Source: an uncultured Bacteroides sp. | Lineage (GTDB): Bacteria; Bacteroidota; Bacteroidia; Bacteroidales; Bacteroidaceae | Assembly: GCA_949292025.1 (NCBI GenBank) | Contig: CASEYC010000091.1 | Location: 1 to 43,393 of the forward strand | Direction of reading: 5' to 3' | DNA: 43,393 bases | Shown: piece by piece, positions 35,773-43,393 of the stretch | How positions within the stretch are numbered: the first letter of the stretch is position 1 | Layout of the letters: the number at the start of each line of letters is the position of its first letter | Notes under the pieces: model-generated | The model's database searches: none | What the model saw: the letters and a program-made list of their open reading frames with translations, nothing else | Told to the model about the DNA's origin: nothing | Translations under genes and position numbers: made by a program

Positions 35773-35831
35773 CAAAACATATTAACGTAAGTCCGGGCTT
35801 GTGCCCGGGCTGTAATCATACCTATTTATAT

Positions 35832-37628
35832 ATGCGATATTCTATCTTGGGAATGCTCCTCTTCTTCGTGGGGTGGGCGTTTGCGGGAAATGTCACGGAG
35901 CAACAGGCCCGCCGGGTGGCGGTGGCTTTTTTTCAGTCGGCTCCACAGACCCGCGTTTCCGAATCGGACCTCCGGCTGGTCCGCGACAGTGAAGGCACGT
36001 TGACGCGCTCCGGTGGTGCGGCTCCGGCTTACTATGTGTTTGACAATGCGTCCGGTGGCGGCTTCGTCATCGTGTCCGGCGACGATGTGGCCAGCCCCGT
36101 GCTGGGCTATTCGTTCACGGAAGAATTTCCGCAGGGCACGTTGCCGCCCAACGTGCAAGACTGGCTGGACGGCCTGCGCGAGGAAATCAACGCGGCCCGG
36201 CGCGGCGGGGTGCTGCCCGAGGAGGCCGTGACCCGCGCTTGGCAGGATACCCGGTCGGGCGATGTGGTGGTGGACTTGGAAACCGCCCGTTGGGACCAAG
36301 GCGACCCCTACAACCAGCTCTGTCCCATCTACAGCGGCCAGCGCACTTATACGGGATGCACCGCCACGGCGTTGGCCATCATTATGCGCTACCACCAATG
36401 GCCGGAGAAAGGCGTGGGCACGCTTCCCGCATATATTACGGAATCCTTTTACATCCGCATACCGGCACTGCCACTGGGACACGCCTACGACTGGGACAAT
36501 ATGCCCCTGGACTATGGACCCAGATCCACCGCTGAACAAGAAGAGGCGGTAGCCACGCTGATGCGCGACTGTGGCTATATGCTGGAGTCGGACTACGGCA
36601 CGAACGCCAGCGGGGGAACCGGGGCATACGTGGATGCCGTCCTCCGGGTGGCCGAATACATGGGTTACGACAAGGCGATACGCTGCGAGATGCGCGACTC
36701 GTATACCTCCGGCGAATGGTACGACCTGATGCAGGCCGAACTGGACAGCCGCCGCCCGGTCCTGTACACCGGTTCGAGCGAAGGGGGTGGCCATGCCTTT
36801 GTGCTGGATGGCTATACCACCGACAATTACTATTCCGTCAACTGGGGTTGGAGTGGCTATTGCAACGGCTACTTCCTGCTGTCCGCCCTCGACCCCGAAG
36901 GGCAAGGAGCCGGTGGCGGTTCTGGTTCTTACAACTATGGTCAAGTGGCTGTGGTCGGCATGCAGAAAGATCAGGGGGGAGAGTACGTGGAGAATATCCG
37001 TTTCAGTCCCAACGAGATAGACGGGGTCATGTACAACGGATTCATCATCCAGGGCACCGTCAGCCAGAATACGCCTTTCACCTTTGGAGCCGGACTGTTC
37101 ACCAACATGAGCGCACAGTCCTTCACTGGCGAGATCCTATTTGCCGTGGCCGACAAGACCGGGCAGATTGTGGAAGAATTGGCAGTAACCCCGCTGGAAG
37201 AGGTGGAACCTTTCTATGGCGTTTACATCAAGCTGGGAGCTTCCCTGACCGTTACCGTTCCCATTGAGAAAGGCTATCGCCTCTGTGCCTATTTCCGCAG
37301 TGAGAAGACGCCGGAGTGGACGCTGATCCGGGGCAACGATGAGGAGGGCTGTGTGTGGGAGTACATCTTGCTGGACGAATACACCATCGAGCAGAGCACT
37401 TCGTTCACCTATAACAAGAACGACCGCAAGATATATCTCACCGTGAGCAACGGCATCAACGTTTCTCTGGCGGATGCCAACGGCAAGGACTACGACCGGG
37501 TAATCCGCCGCGAGGGCACGTTGGTCACTGTCAATGCCATCCTCTTGCCCGCGGGCACCTATACGCTGACTTTGCAGCGCGGCGGCGAGCAGAAAGACCT
37601 GCGCTTCACGATAGGCAAGGCCCAATGA
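35832..37628 (+). CDS. C10 family cysteine peptidase (streptopain-like)
   Basis: Secreted papain-fold protease of 598 residues with a signal peptide (MRYSILGMLLFFVGWAFAG). Residues about 20-120 form a Spi-type inhibitory prodomain (VTEQQARRVAVAFFQS, PAYYVFDNASGGGFVIVSGD). The catalytic pair is Cys176 in TYTGCTATALA and His321 in GGGHAFVLDGY, with the oxyanion Trp in VNWGWSGYCNGYF. About 200 C-terminal residues form beta-rich domains with no recognised family. The start at 35832 is set by the signal peptide. A BACON-domain lipoprotein gene follows after 44 nt and is probably cotranscribed. Confidence 0.92.
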   Translation: MRYSILGMLLFFVGWAFAGNVTEQQARRVAVAFFQSAPQTRVSESDLRLVRDSEGTLTRSGGAAPAYYVFDNASGGGFVIVSGDDVASPVLGYSFTEEFPQGTLPPNVQDWLDGLREEINAARRGGVLPEEAVTRAWQDTRSGDVVVDLETARWDQGDPYNQLCPIYSGQRTYTGCTATALAIIMRYHQWPEKGVGTLPAYITESFYIRIPALPLGHAYDWDNMPLDYGPRSTAEQEEAVATLMRDCGYMLESDYGTNASGGTGAYVDAVLRVAEYMGYDKAIRCEMRDSYTSGEWYDLMQAELDSRRPVLYTGSSEGGGHAFVLDGYTTDNYYSVNWGWSGYCNGYFLLSALDPEGQGAGGGSGSYNYGQVAVVGMQKDQGGEYVENIRFSPNEIDGVMYNGFIIQGTVSQNTPFTFGAGLFTNMSAQSFTGEILFAVADKTGQIVEELAVTPLEEVEPFYGVYIKLGASLTVTVPIEKGYRLCAYFRSEKTPEWTLIRGNDEEGCVWEYILLDEYTIEQSTSFTYNKNDRKIYLTVSNGINVSLADANGKDYDRVIRREGTLVTVNAILLPAGTYTLTLQRGGEQKDLRFTIGKAQ

Positions 37629-37672
37629 TGAAAGCAGGGAGATTATTCACCTTTATTTAATGAATGATGATT

Positions 37673-39100
37673 ATGAAGAAATATAGTTGGATGCTGCTGG
37701 CCGGCCTGTTCATTGGGCTGGCGGCTTGTTCGGACGACAAGAATAACGATACGCCCGCGCAGACACCGAGCATCACCGTGGAAGAAGAATGGGAATCCGG
37801 CCAAATCCTGTTTGGGAGCACGACCGGCAGCCAAGTGGTACATTTCACCACGAACGTGGCCTGGACAGCCGAGGCCGACCAGGAATGGTGCAAAGTGCAG
37901 CCCACATCGGGTAATGCGGGCGACGTGTCTGTGACCATCACGCTGGAGGAGAACACAGGGTATGACGAACGCAACGCCTCCTTTGTGCTGACGGCAGGCA
38001 CGGCCAAGAAGAGTTTCAAGATTGTGCAGAAGCAGAAAGACGCCTTGATGGCCACCTCCAGTACCGTGGAAATGGACGCCGCGGGCGGGAACTTTACTGT
38101 AGAGATGCAGAGCAACCTTTCGTTTGATTATGAGATAGACGGCGCTGCAACAACTGCATGGATTGCCCCTGTGGAGACCAAGGGCTTGACCACAACGCGC
38201 CTGCAATTCAGCGCGCAGCCCAATGACACCGGGGAGAAACGCGAGGGGAAAATCGTGTTCCGCGCCGGCGAGCTGAGCGAAACGGTGACGGTCTATCAGG
38301 CGGCAGCCGACACGTCCACGCCCACGCTGGTGCTGACCCAGAATGAATACACCGTGGGCAGCGACGGCGAGGAGATTGTCATCGAACTGAAGAGCAATGT
38401 GGAGTATGAAATGGTCATGCCCCAGGAAGCCGACTGGCTCAGCGAGGTGGTCACGCGCTCCATGTCCACCTATACCCGCCGGATACTGGTAGCGCCCAAT
38501 GACGGCTACGACTTGCGCGAGGCGGACATCCATTTTGTCAACGAGAGCGAGGGCATAGACGAGGTGGTGCACATCATCCAGGTGCAGAAAGACGCCATCT
38601 TGGTGGCCAAGCAATCCTATCCCGTGGGGGCGGAAGCCGGCCAGTTGGATTTTGTGGTCAACACGAATGTGGATTTTGAGGTTTCCGTGTCGGCCGGTTG
38701 GATCCGGCAGGCGCCGCAGACGCGCGGGCTGGTCGAAGTTCCTTTGAGCTTCATCTACGATGCCAATACGGGCGGGGAGCCCCGCGAGGCTGTCATCAAG
38801 CTGTCGGCAGAGGGCGTAGAGCAATCTGTCACGGTGTTGCAGGAAGGCGAGAAAGTAATCAGCCGGGTCAGCATCGTGCATAGTGGACTGACCTTCACGG
38901 CCCCCCTGATTACCGGTTCGTTCTTTGCCGACGGGGTCATCTCTTGGGGCGATGGCACCAGCGAGGAATACAGCGAGGAGGCTTCCCACACCTATCAGGA
39001 TGAGAACGCACATACCGTGGTGATAGAATCCGTGGGCGCCGAGGAAATCACCCTGCCTGACCTGGTAGGCGTTTCCGAAATAGACTTGTCTGGCTTCTGA
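37673..39100 (+). CDS. multi-BACON-domain lipoprotein
   Basis: Envelope lipoprotein of 475 residues; signal MKKYSWMLLAGLFIGLAA with Cys19 followed by SDDKNND, which fits surface export. Four repeated beta-sandwich units of roughly 90 residues (about 35-405) show BACON marks such as NVAWTAEADQEWCKVQPTSG and AGWIRQAPQT, ending in strands like SFKIVQKQKDA and SVTVLQEGEK. The tail (410-475) contains a PKD-like SWGDGTSEEYSEEASHTYQ stretch. BACON domains bind mucin or carbohydrate or act as spacers. The position after a C10 protease suggests a partner, substrate or anchor; this is inference. ATGs at 37664 and 37667 are alternatives. Confidence 0.85.
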   Translation: MKKYSWMLLAGLFIGLAACSDDKNNDTPAQTPSITVEEEWESGQILFGSTTGSQVVHFTTNVAWTAEADQEWCKVQPTSGNAGDVSVTITLEENTGYDERNASFVLTAGTAKKSFKIVQKQKDALMATSSTVEMDAAGGNFTVEMQSNLSFDYEIDGAATTAWIAPVETKGLTTTRLQFSAQPNDTGEKREGKIVFRAGELSETVTVYQAAADTSTPTLVLTQNEYTVGSDGEEIVIELKSNVEYEMVMPQEADWLSEVVTRSMSTYTRRILVAPNDGYDLREADIHFVNESEGIDEVVHIIQVQKDAILVAKQSYPVGAEAGQLDFVVNTNVDFEVSVSAGWIRQAPQTRGLVEVPLSFIYDANTGGEPREAVIKLSAEGVEQSVTVLQEGEKVISRVSIVHSGLTFTAPLITGSFFADGVISWGDGTSEEYSEEASHTYQDENAHTVVIESVGAEEITLPDLVGVSEIDLSGF

Positions 39101-40162: not shown

Positions 40163-40206
40163 GCCGCCCGGCATCGCAGTGAGTGCAGTGCCGGGCGGCT
40201 TTTTTG
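40163..40206 (+). terminator. rpmH terminator
   Basis: GCCGCCCGGCA (40163-40173) pairs perfectly with TGCCGGGCGGC (40189-40199), followed by seven T. Confidence 0.92.
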
Positions 40207-40208
40207 CG

Positions 40209-40240
40209 TTAACCTAACCTTAACGTAACCTTAACCTTCC
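40209..40240 (+). promoter_or_regulatory. three 11-bp direct repeats (OmpR/PhoB-type operator)
   Basis: TTAACCTAACC (40209-40219), TTAACGTAACC (40220-40230) and TTAACCTTCC (40231-40240) are phased at exactly 11 bp. The third covers the -33 position of the TATCTTTG promoter at 40258-40265, where TTTG is absent. This arrangement is usual for activation by OmpR/PhoB-family response regulators. Confidence 0.55.
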
Positions 40241-40257
40241 GCCTCCCCAAGCCGCCC

Positions 40258-40265
40258 TATCTTTG
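40258..40265 (+). promoter_or_regulatory. -7 element of the DUF3836-like gene
   Basis: TATCTTTG, 63 nt before the start codon, 17 nt after the 11-bp repeats. Confidence 0.55.
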
Positions 40266-40328
40266 CAGTGTCAAAAGGACAAAGAAGTAAAACAAAAATA
40301 GTATAAACCCATTAAAACCAGTACGATT

Positions 40329-40814
40329 ATGAAAACTTTAGTCATGTCATTTGTCATTGCAGCCGCCGGATTGTTCAACAGCGCATTTGCCGGAAACACA
40401 GTTCAACAACGCTTCGCCTACAACACCGATACGGACAGCACGGGCGCCGAGATGCAGTATGTATATAAGGTGTCCGCGGACGGCCAGTACCTCCGCCACC
40501 ACCTGCAATACCGCTGCACCTACGACAGCCAACGCAGACTTTTGACGAAGGAAATCCTTCGCTGGGACGCCGCTTCCGCCAAGTATTGCCCCGCCTACGC
40601 CCTGCACTATGCCTACGAGGGCGATGCCGTCACCGTGGAGTGCGCCCTTTGGAGCCGGCACGACCAGGCTTATACGGATGTCCGCGAGAAGGCCGTCTAT
40701 GCCGCCGATGCCCTGGGATTAACCTACCAGGCTTACGAATACGATGCCGATGCGGACGCCTGGCGCCTGACCGGGGAGCACGAGGTGGATGCCGCGCTGC
40801 TGGCAGAGAGATAA
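40329..40814 (+). CDS. small secreted protein, DUF3836-like
   Basis: A 161-residue protein with a signal peptide (MKTLVMSFVIAAAGLFNSAFA). The mature part is rich in Tyr and short beta repeats, with YKVSADGQYLRHHLQYRCTY, LLTKEILRWDAASAKYCPAY and EYDADADAWRLTGEHEVDA. This layout matches the small exported DUF3836-type proteins of Bacteroidales as I remember them; function is unknown. An 11-bp repeat operator precedes its promoter and a histidine kinase gene follows after 84 nt with its own promoter, so the protein may be a target of that kinase's regulator. Confidence 0.7.
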   Translation: MKTLVMSFVIAAAGLFNSAFAGNTVQQRFAYNTDTDSTGAEMQYVYKVSADGQYLRHHLQYRCTYDSQRRLLTKEILRWDAASAKYCPAYALHYAYEGDAVTVECALWSRHDQAYTDVREKAVYAADALGLTYQAYEYDADADAWRLTGEHEVDAALLAER

Positions 40815-40843
40815 GCCACTGTATAAAAATAGGAGAGGGATTC

Positions 40844-40875
40844 CTTGGCGCGGGCCGGGGAATCCTTTATTTTTG
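40844..40875 (+). promoter_or_regulatory. promoter of the histidine kinase gene
   Basis: CTTG (40844-40847), 20 nt, TATTTTTG (40868-40875). The transcript would have a very short leader of about 17 nt. Confidence 0.6.
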
Positions 40876-40886
40876 CACCGCTAATG

Positions 40887-40892
40887 AAGGAG
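40887..40892 (+). promoter_or_regulatory. Shine-Dalgarno site that sets the kinase start
   Basis: AAGGAG lies 6 nt before the ATG at 40899. Strong Shine-Dalgarno sites are unusual in this window, and this one favours 40899 over the in-frame ATG at 40884. Confidence 0.6.
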
Positions 40893-40898
40893 TATCCG

Positions 40899-43133
40899 AT
40901 GAAGACAAAGACAATGATATTGCTTTCGGTATGCGCGTTGGTCGTCCTTTGCCAAGGAATAGGGGCGGGATATGCCTATCATTCGTTGAAAGAAAAAGCC
41001 GATGTGTCGCTGAAGGCCGCTTTCCGGAAGGCATTTGACACGTTGGTGGACGAACAGGTCAATGCCTTGCCCTATCCCGACGGCACCGTCACCCACCTGA
41101 TTTATACGCCTGCCGACTCTCTTTACCGGCAGGACGAAGAACTGTTCAGCTTCTATACCTCCCAGCAGACGTCTGCCATCCTGCAAGATGCCTATGGGCA
41201 GCCGGAAATGTCGCTCGACTCCCTGCGCCGGAGGTTGGAGAGCGAACTGCACTATGACGGCGTGGAGGGCGAGGTCAGCATCCGAAAGTTCAATGCCCGC
41301 ACAGGAGAAACCTTGCAATGCGTGCCCGATGCGTCCGAAAACCGCGCTCCCGGCCTGCACGTCTCTTCTGAACCTGCTTATTTGCACGAAGCCAAAGGCA
41401 CAGCGGTGGAAGCACGGCTCGTCCAGCCCTTCTACAAGGGATACATGGGGCGGATGCTCTTGTTCTATGCGATGACATTGCTGCTTGCCTTGGCAGTCAT
41501 CATTCCTTTTGTCGTCCGTATGCGCAGGTTGCAGCGGGAGCAAGCGGCCATCGACGGGCAGCGGCGTGAGTTTTATGGACAGGCCAAGGAGATGGAAATG
41601 CCTGTCCGCCGGATGAAGGACGATTTGGACGCCGCCCGGTGGACGCAAGCCCGCGAGACGGCGCAACGGTTGCTGACCGCCACGGAAGCGACCTTGACGC
41701 ACGCCAAGCAGAAGGATGCCCGGGCACATCGGAGCCGTCCGGCCGCTTCCCTCTGTTGGCTGGGGCTTGCCTTGGTCAGCTCTCTGCTACTGACTTTTCT
41801 TTGGAGCAACTATATCTACCGGGAGCAACGCTTGGCGATGGCGCACGAGGTGCAGGTCTGCTTCGAGGAGGCGTTCGTGAGCGAAAGTGCCCACCGTTAT
41901 CAACGCCTGGTAGACTCCCTGCCTGAACACCCGCGGGCCCGGACGGCCACGGACTTCTGCTACCGGCAGACCGACACCTTGTTGAAGCGGGGGGACAGCA
42001 TTTGGATAGGCATGGCGTTCGTCCGGCGGGGCGGTATGAACATGGAGGAAAATGCCCGCGTCCGTCGTGCTTACAACAATCAGGAGATTTTCAAAGATGC
42101 CGGTGTCCCTTATGTGCCGCTGGACAGCGTGATGATGGATTCGTTTTTTAATGTGCGTTTGCGGGCGGCGGGGTTGCCGGCGGGGCATATCCGCTTGTCC
42201 GACAAGGCTGCCGGAAACATCATCGGGCAAGGGGCAGGTATGTTGCACACCTTTGGGCAGGATATGGTTACTCGGCCCGTGGCCGTGACCACTGACCGAA
42301 CACGGTGGATGGAAGGCATCGTGCCTTTCCCTGAGACTTTTATTCTCCAATCGGTGTGGTATCTGTTTGTGGCCTTGCGTCTTATCTCCCTGTTGACCTT
42401 GGCTTGCATCGTGGGTTTGTGGTACGTGGGGCGGCGTTTGCGCAAGCTGGGGCAATTCCGCGAAGACTTCACCTACTCCATGATACACGACATGAAGTCA
42501 CCCCTGCAATCCGTCCTGATGGGCGCCCAAATCCTGTCGAGCGGTCGCCTGCCCGAAGGCTCGGAGAAGGCCGTCCGCATCCGCCAAGCCATGACCGACG
42601 AGTGCGACCACCTGCTGACCCTCTCCAACCGTGTAGTCACCCTGACGCAGATGGAGCGCGGCGAACTGGAATTGCACCGGACGGATATCCCTTTGCGCCC
42701 GCTGCTGGAAGACCTGGCCGCCAAGTTCCGCCTGAAGGCTCCGAAGCCCGTCTCCTTCGACATTGCCTGCGACAAGGACTTGCTGGTGAATGCCGATGCC
42801 TTCTGCCTGCGCGAGGTGCTTTCCAACCTGATAGACAATGCCATCAAGTACTCCCGCGAGGAGGTGTCCATCCGGCTTTCTGCTGAACTGGGAGCGGACG
42901 GGAGCATGTGTATCTGTGTGCGCGACAACGGTATCGGTATTCCTCTGCGTGAACAGCAACGCATCTTCGGCAAGTTCGAGCGCGTGGCATCGGGCAGCCG
43001 TACCACGGGGGCTTCCGGCTTCGGCTTGGGATTGAACTTCGTGTGGCAAGTGGTGCGGGCGCACGGCGGCAGGGTGGAGGTGCGGAGCGACGGGCGCAGC
43101 TATAGCGAGTTTAGGGCGACTCTTCGTTTCTAA
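40899..43133 (+). CDS. sensor histidine kinase with duplicated sensor and a degenerate internal DHp domain
   Basis: Membrane histidine kinase of 744 residues. First module: helix about 6-26, extracytoplasmic region 27-185, helix 186-207, then a cytoplasmic helical stretch 222-274 (EFYGQAKEMEMPVRRMK). Second module: helix 285-305, extracytoplasmic 306-482, helix 484-510, then a true DHp with His530 (SMIHDMKSPL) and a catalytic domain with N box NLIDNAIKYS (643-652), G1 DNGIGIP (676-682) and G2 GFGLGLN (707-713). KEMEMPV (230-236) aligns with HDMKSPL (530-536), so Lys230 replaces the His and the first module has no ATPase domain. Sensor halves also resemble each other (SLDSLRRRLESEL versus PLDSVMMDSFFNV). 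No response regulator gene is seen in the window. Confidence 0.88.
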   Translation: MKTKTMILLSVCALVVLCQGIGAGYAYHSLKEKADVSLKAAFRKAFDTLVDEQVNALPYPDGTVTHLIYTPADSLYRQDEELFSFYTSQQTSAILQDAYGQPEMSLDSLRRRLESELHYDGVEGEVSIRKFNARTGETLQCVPDASENRAPGLHVSSEPAYLHEAKGTAVEARLVQPFYKGYMGRMLLFYAMTLLLALAVIIPFVVRMRRLQREQAAIDGQRREFYGQAKEMEMPVRRMKDDLDAARWTQARETAQRLLTATEATLTHAKQKDARAHRSRPAASLCWLGLALVSSLLLTFLWSNYIYREQRLAMAHEVQVCFEEAFVSESAHRYQRLVDSLPEHPRARTATDFCYRQTDTLLKRGDSIWIGMAFVRRGGMNMEENARVRRAYNNQEIFKDAGVPYVPLDSVMMDSFFNVRLRAAGLPAGHIRLSDKAAGNIIGQGAGMLHTFGQDMVTRPVAVTTDRTRWMEGIVPFPETFILQSVWYLFVALRLISLLTLACIVGLWYVGRRLRKLGQFREDFTYSMIHDMKSPLQSVLMGAQILSSGRLPEGSEKAVRIRQAMTDECDHLLTLSNRVVTLTQMERGELELHRTDIPLRPLLEDLAAKFRLKAPKPVSFDIACDKDLLVNADAFCLREVLSNLIDNAIKYSREEVSIRLSAELGADGSMCICVRDNGIGIPLREQQRIFGKFERVASGSRTTGASGFGLGLNFVWQVVRAHGGRVEVRSDGRSYSEFRATLRF

Positions 43134-43173
43134 AACCGCTTGGAAAACTTGTCGAAGCCGCTTGAAAACTTCA

Positions 43174-43253
43174 TTTCTAGGCTGAAAATGTATATTTCTA
43201 GGCTGGAAATATACATTCTTAGGCTGGAAATATGTATTTCTAGCCTAGAAATC
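43174..43253. repeat. 21-bp tandem repeat after the histidine kinase gene
   Basis: Four units begin at 43174, 43195, 43216 and 43237. The first three are TTTCTAGGCTGnAAATrTr-like 21-mers; the last becomes the perfect palindrome ATTTCTAGCCTAGAAAT (43236-43252). The surrounding sequence has no gene. No spacers of different sequence, so not CRISPR. Confidence 0.8.
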
Positions 43254-43316
43254 AGGGCTGACGCATTACTTAATAGACTGAGAATCAAATCATGTTAAAT
43301 AAATTTAGTGATAAGC

Positions 43317-43347
43317 TTTATTTATAATTGCTATTTTTATACTTTTG
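43317..43347 (+). promoter_or_regulatory. promoter of the gene at the window edge
   Basis: TTTA (43317-43320), 19 nt, TACTTTTG (43340-43347), 30 nt before an ATG at 43378. Confidence 0.5.
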
Positions 43348-43377
43348 CCCATATATCACGTTTAAAAAAAGCAGCCA

Positions 43378-43393
43378 ATGGAAATCATCTCAA
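43378..43393 (+). CDS. first codons of a gene running off the window
   Basis: ATG at 43378 opens MEIIS before the end of the sequence. The only support is position downstream of a good promoter and an A-rich leader (gtttaaaaaaagcagcca). Product cannot be named. Confidence 0.4.

Follow-up and report, generated by a model that had tools for sequence, protein, structure and literature searches.

Can one histidine kinase chain carry two complete sensor modules with a dead DHp domain between them, and if so, which output would such a protein serve? The question is raised by a gene near the end of contig CASEYC010000091.1 from an uncultured Bacteroides sp.; the whole stretch of 43,393 nucleotides that was analysed is called the window here. 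The initial annotation had placed the kinase at 40899-43133, and had picked out K230 and H530. These coordinates and residue numbers proved correct, the open reading frame having 744 residues, and the kinase reads as follows.

40899..43133, + strand: tandem-sensor histidine kinase, 744 aa (ORF, Pfam, hydropathy, family comparison)
40905..40979, + strand: TM1, residues 3-27 (hydropathy)
40980..41441, + strand: extracytoplasmic sensor 1, residues 28-181 (homology with sensor 2 and with the sensors of single-module kinases)
41442..41531, + strand: TM2, residues 182-211 (hydropathy)
41571..41714, + strand: relic DHp hairpin, residues 225-272 (profile comparison, conserved residues)
41586..41588, + strand: K230, at the position of the phospho-acceptor His (alignment of 37 members)
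41739..41807, + strand: TM3, residues 281-303 (hydropathy)
41808..42335, + strand: extracytoplasmic sensor 2, residues 304-479 (profile comparison)
42336..42401, + strand: TM4, residues 480-501 (hydropathy)
42432..42668, + strand: active DHp, residues 512-590 (HisKA at 521-588)
42486..42488, + strand: H530, predicted phospho-acceptor (37 of 37 members)
42804..43127, + strand: HATPase_c catalytic domain, residues 636-743 (Pfam)

Homology and spread of the tandem layout

Hydropathy and sequence give the chain order TM1-sensor 1-TM2-relic DHp-TM3-sensor 2-TM4-DHp-CA. Pfam finds one HisKA domain (521-588, PF00512, E 8.8e-6; its 26.1 bits lie just below the cut-off of 26.9) and a single copy of HATPase_c (636-743), and nothing in the first half of the protein rises over the Pfam cut-off. 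Since the sole HisKA match is that at 521-588, the inner relic DHp is invisible to Pfam. HisKA was matched at E ≤ 0.1 in all 26 tandem members scanned, and a search of residues 1-517 for relatives of solved structure gave none up to E 1. The single-module HDMK[ST]P kinases of Bacteroidaceae, which go with an OmpR-type regulator, resemble the window kinase in sensor module, H box and catalytic domain. They have one sensor and two helices, however, whereas the window kinase has four helices and two homologous sensors. As its H, N and G boxes are present and the single-sensor layout and the adjacent regulator are not, it is classed, on sequence features, as a variant of the HisKA sensor kinases.

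Profiles were compared for module 1 (22 rows), module 2 (21 rows) and single-module kinases from relatives (27 rows, of HDMK and HELK types, HELKTP kinases included), near-duplicates at 85% identity having been removed from 33, 33 and 30 rows respectively. Module 1 (residues 1-290) matched the single-module kinases over 269 columns with E 1.8e-23, and the alignment spans the sensor, TM2, the juxtamembrane stretch and both DHp helices. Between the two modules E was 3.4e-15, and between module 2 and the single-module kinases 8.6e-57; the reversed-profile controls gave E 0.029, 0.1 and 0.073. The cytoplasmic part of module 1 alone scored 46.1 against the single-module DHp profile, both helices being covered, while the best of 100 column shuffles reached 16.3. 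The extracytoplasmic part scored 46.8 with the single kinases and 56.9 with module 2, whereas the highest values from 60 shuffles each were 15.4 and 17.1, respectively. The relic hairpin is 14 columns shorter than an active DHp, which appears as one deletion in the alignment to the single kinases. When the relic was compared with the module-2 DHp alone it scored only 22.0, and one of 100 shuffles reached 21.0. It is through ordinary kinases, and not through the neighbouring module-2 DHp, that the relic is recognised.

Judged by these profiles, residues 1-280 make up an entire sensor module that shares homology with ordinary single-module kinases, and residues 225-272 are a DHp relic that carries the 14-column deletion and has lost its histidine. 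Several earlier proposals are thereby borne out. The initial annotation had described two sensor modules with one ATPase domain, in agreement with the four predicted helices, the one HATPase_c and the homology of the modules. It had likened 222-274 to a DHp with Lys230 in place of His, and had suggested comparing the first half with the second by profile; the likeness and the similarity are both present, the latter in the extracytoplasmic regions as well. Its residue pairings also hold in the alignment: LDS at 106-108 is in register with LDS at 408-410, and the pre-DHp and H-box stretches (KEMEMPV at residue 230, HDMKSPL at residue 530) are in register up to P235/P535. It had further offered an ancient tandem duplication or a fusion of two kinase genes as the origin. 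Module 1 is nearer to ordinary kinases (1.8e-23) than to module 2 (3.4e-15), a result that would fit either a one-gene duplication or a fusion of two paralogues.

The layout recurs in 35 proteins from 24 of 158 genomes of the genus, several of them encoded side by side, and two further tandem proteins from Phocaeicola bring the total to 37; eight more genomes of the genus gave weak partial matches only. Among the named carriers are Bacteroides cellulosilyticus, oleiciplenus, timonensis, stercorirosoris, salyersiae and nordii, and Phocaeicola coprophilus. In wider draws, for which the best three candidates per genome were scored, a full-length match was found in 6 of 399 genomes of the family (two of another genus) and in 1 of 393 of the order, namely the window genome. 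Among the best 5000 records of a plasmid search, none covers 80% of the query. In a draw of 61 genomes only G002 had carried the layout besides the window genome, and this rarity was a sampling effect, as the 24 carriers among the 158 genomes show. A one-off artefact of gene prediction or assembly is ruled out by the 37 proteins, among them records of named isolates. Because the genomes are akin, counts across them are not independent.

Whether the first His is always lost, as the initial annotation had asked, can be answered from the 37 members: the position of Lys230 holds E in 22, K in 12 and G in 3, and never His. With one catalytic domain in the chain, the description of a first module devoid of both ATPase and phospho-acceptor is upheld. 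The second module keeps its boxes. H, D, K, S and P of the HDMKSP box, H530 included, and N643 and N647 are found in 37 of 37, and D676, G678, G680, F690, G707, G709 and G711 in all 36 members that extend that far. In a tree of 70 cores, 32 tandem kinase cores form one clade (support 100/99), and a wider clade of 53 cores takes in tandem and single-module HDMK[ST]P kinases (100/99). The tree does not settle the sister group of the tandem clade and was flagged for long branches, one such join involving the branch that holds this clade. Since the tandem cores form one clade, the His was probably lost in one inherited event. Four proteins (L077_6432, L078, L105 and L107) enter the counts on 37 and the identity table used below, and stand outside the profiles and the tree.

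Candidate regulator, DUF3836 genes and putative operator

PF00072, the response-regulator receiver, had no match on the window contig, C91, which stops 260 bp past the kinase gene, and an adjacent cognate regulator on this contig was rejected. One of the 37 tandem kinases has a regulator within 1 kb and 8 have one within 5 kb, whereas 40 of 62 single-module kinases have one within 300 bp. A flank of 1 kb on both sides is available for 33 of the 37, the other four being short on one side, and the regulator profile, home-made from four proteins, may miss distant regulators. By these counts the tandem kinases appear to be orphan kinases. In several large-genome species, an OmpR-type regulator is found inside the tandem-kinase cluster, and the regulator homologue of one such locus, L076, has a PF00072 receiver and a PF00486 (Trans_reg_C) domain. 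Of the 24 tandem genomes, 14 were searched, and 13 of these have a homologue with 58-100% identity; the exception is G002, a genome 63% complete.

In the window genome, the regulator of this clade is encoded on contig C34 (64% identity; the next regulators have 41-42%), where its neighbours are the gene of a single-module HDMKTP kinase and one for a DUF3836 protein. The H box was read in six of the 35 HATPase matches of this genome, and is of HDMK type in four (C91, C34, C76 and C113) and of HELK type in two. Four HDMK-type kinases for one clade regulator suggest that several kinases may converge on it. The clusters L076, L077 and L081 contain two or three tandem kinases apiece, every one of which has a DUF3836 gene no more than 1 kb away; a membrane protein of about 180 aa is encoded there as well.

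The gene directly upstream of the window kinase encodes a secreted DUF3836 protein and is itself preceded by a repeat element.

40209..40237, + strand: putative operator, three 11-bp direct repeats TTAACCTAACC/TTAACGTAACC/TTAACCT (motif pattern, repeat finder)
40258..40265, + strand: putative −7 box TATCTTTG (TAnnTTTG), offset 27 from the third repeat (sequence motif)
40329..40814, + strand: DUF3836 secreted-protein gene, 161 aa, under the putative operator (PF12930, E 4.1e-23)

Of the 37 tandem kinases, 19 have a DUF3836 gene no more than 1 kb away, versus 6 of 62 single-module kinases; the other 18 tandem kinases have none at this distance, with four of the 37 short of flank on one side. DUF3836 is found in 129 of 158 genomes, most of which are without tandem kinases, so that it was rejected as a one-to-one marker of these kinases.

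The first two copies of the window repeat were reported by the repeat finder at a spacing of 11, and the third was seen by eye and by the pattern; in shuffled sequences the chance expectation is zero. The strict motif, TTAACCTAAnnWTAACnnnnnnWTAAC (three direct repeats with a period of 11), precedes DUF3836 genes in 30 of 38 distinct upstream regions and a looser form in 33 of 38. In all 30 regions with the strict motif, TAnnTTTG, which we take to be the Bacteroides −7 box, stands at offset 27. This triple repeat upstream of most of the DUF3836 genes read is new here. A second group of DUF3836 genes, with upstream regions like one another, has no triple repeat (L079 11494, L080 17359, L083 699, L093 2261 and L110 20317) and may be under another control.

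With up to two mismatches the window genome has four sites, and the reversed pattern gives 0. One precedes the DUF3836 gene that neighbours the window kinase, one is at the locus of the C34 kinase and regulator, one lies on C41 before a third DUF3836 gene, and one on C113, 44 bp from the ORF of a further HDMKTP kinase. The gene for a 197-aa membrane protein is under the C113 putative operator. Allowing one mismatch, sites occur in 43 of 158 genomes, with zero in every genome for the reversed control: 24 of 24 tandem genomes have them, as do 19 of 134 others, an association for which the Fisher value of 5e-17 is an overstatement, the genomes being related. As the operator is present in those 19 genomes without tandem kinases, the regulon would be wider than the tandem kinases. 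One genome free of tandem kinases, G123, has six operator sites on its contig C24.

A site lies no more than 5 kb from the clade regulator in 10 of 13 genomes. Among 50 sites in 14 genomes, 25 are near the regulator or a tandem kinase and 25 near neither; the latter include that on C41 and one on contig C1 of G061, both before DUF3836 genes. We read 34 operator loci: all four in the window genome, plus 30 from the search of 158 genomes. The coded motif is carried by 33 of the 34, and TAnnTTTG follows in all 33, in 32 cases at offset 27 and in the remaining one at 28. Two overlapping registers are seen at one of the loci read. On the same strand downstream, a DUF3836 gene is present at 23 of the 34 loci, and none was seen at 11. 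A repeat spacing of about 11 bp is typical of PhoB/OmpR-class sites, and direct repeats of this kind at a fixed promoter distance, as found here, are a trait of OmpR/PhoB-type regulons. From the linkage we infer that the regulator may bind the 11-bp repeats. The kinase family appears to control small secreted-protein genes via a common DNA switch.

Proposed signal path and alternatives

The reading that fits best, and that we hold to be probable, is that of an orphan kinase with two inputs coupled by the relic, which would feed the C34-type regulator and through it switch on DUF3836 genes. Two homologous extracytoplasmic sensors lie one after the other in a single chain, with the output machinery in module 2 only. 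The relic, presumably no longer phosphorylated, would persist as a short helical hairpin that transmits movement of TM2 to TM3, and sensor 1 would thereby modulate sensor 2 and the kinase. As the deletion of 14 columns equals two heptads, the hairpin could keep its register. H530 would be autophosphorylated and the phosphate handed to the OmpR-type regulator encoded on C34; this regulator would bind the three 11-bp repeats before the −7 promoter and turn on the DUF3836 secreted-protein genes, whose products may be the output and perhaps a feedback signal. A bolder form of this reading, in which the relic is a working histidine-free coupler two heptads shorter, several tandem kinases together with ordinary ones converge on one regulator, and the secreted DUF3836 proteins may be sensed by the neighbouring kinases, is tentative and on balance doubtful.

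The C34 regulator has its own adjacent kinase, and the window kinase could therefore be a phosphatase or serve another regulator. That the tandem kinase might act mainly as a phosphatase or brake on a regulator activated by the single-module kinase of C34, to which this regulator is next in the window genome, seems unlikely to us. The catalytic boxes of the tandem kinases are intact. Moreover, the regulators of G120, G140 and G144 have no kinase in the approximately 1.5 kb read on each side, so that an orphan kinase would be needed there for activation.

It is also conceivable that only the second half signals and that module 1, left over from a gene fusion, is decaying and has no function of its own. 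From TM1 to the relic, mean pairwise identity is 0.33-0.45, far below that of the DHp (0.68) and CA (0.62; table without two fragments, L088 and L089). The relic has lost its His and part of the hairpin, hydropathy misses TM3 in L072, L105 and L107, three of the 37 members, and the weak partial matches in G154 and G167, which contain stop codons, could be remnants. However, the output half includes sensor 2, and this sensor (0.33) is no better conserved than sensor 1 (0.39). Of the 36 members whose N-terminus is present, 33 show all four helices by hydropathy, and Y226, W248, L266 and A269, as well as Q221 just before the relic, are invariant in 37 of 37. The matched stretch is free of stops in all 35 tandem rows. 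dN/dS is 0.17 and 0.12 for sensor 1 and 0.06 and 0.15 for the relic (two comparisons, with few sites in the first), values that indicate purifying selection on the relic. We regard a leftover without function as quite improbable. The last alternative, that 222-274 is an ordinary linker between the sensors and resembles a DHp by chance, in keeping with the missing Pfam match and the near-shuffle score against the module-2 DHp, is largely refuted by the shuffle-controlled match of both helices to ordinary kinases and by the co-linearity of the full module with them, and we consider it extremely unlikely.

How does the proposed path compare with known systems? RprX/RprY of Bacteroides and Porphyromonas consists of a membrane kinase and an OmpR-type regulator, like the pair proposed here, and RprX, unlike the tandem kinase, is a single-module kinase. 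BvgS/EvgS and TodS resemble the tandem kinase in taking more than one sensory input per kinase; unlike in the tandem kinase, no relic DHp with a further pair of membrane helices is known to lie between their sensors. In DivL and other pseudo-histidine kinases, a DHp without phospho-acceptor His serves signalling, as is proposed for the relic. In these proteins the whole kinase is a pseudo-enzyme that acts on another kinase. The tandem kinase differs from them in that the shrunken DHp is part of the chain of a kinase whose output is intact. Pseudo-histidine kinases such as DivL are the subject of PMC4211667 and PMC9430884. Among literature listings and the opening lines of abstracts, with few subscription journals represented, we found no description of a kinase with a tandem sensor and a relic DHp, and those on DUF3836, pseudo-DHp, two-sensor and dual-sensing systems held nothing on the tandem layout.

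A family that keeps a DHp hairpin free of phospho-acceptor in the middle of its signalling path, under purifying selection, offers a natural test of how signals pass through kinases. With a His-free hairpin retained in that path, the mechanical and the chemical jobs of a DHp would be separable. The DUF3836 promoters may serve as a ready reporter, and the C34-type protein is a named candidate regulator. Input, coupling and output could thus be addressed in culturable gut Bacteroides, e.g. B. cellulosilyticus, a carrier of tandem kinases.

Neighbouring sequence features

Just past the kinase the contig stops inside an apparent insertion sequence (43243-43393). By eye, its outer end is CAGGGCTGACGCATTACT, the inverse of which is found on contig C41 of the window genome (G000; positions 1-160), and it is flanked by a 10-bp duplication, GCCTAGAAAT, that is present as a single copy in the relative G002. 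A second DUF3836 gene with an operator lies on the far side, on C41; the gene order before the insertion was therefore probably DUF3836-kinase-DUF3836. In G002 the DUF3836 gene follows the kinase on its downstream side, and with respect to the putative EF-P gene the block has the opposite orientation (window 40206-43252 versus L041 7341-10452). Either a rearrangement between DUF3836 copies or a misassembly would account for this.

Right after the kinase, at 43160-43252, there are three imperfect, partly palindromic repeats with a spacing of 21 bp, which are nearly identical in G002. Farther upstream, 35799-39100 of the window encodes a C10-family cysteine protease with an inhibitor prodomain, followed by a BACON-domain protein.
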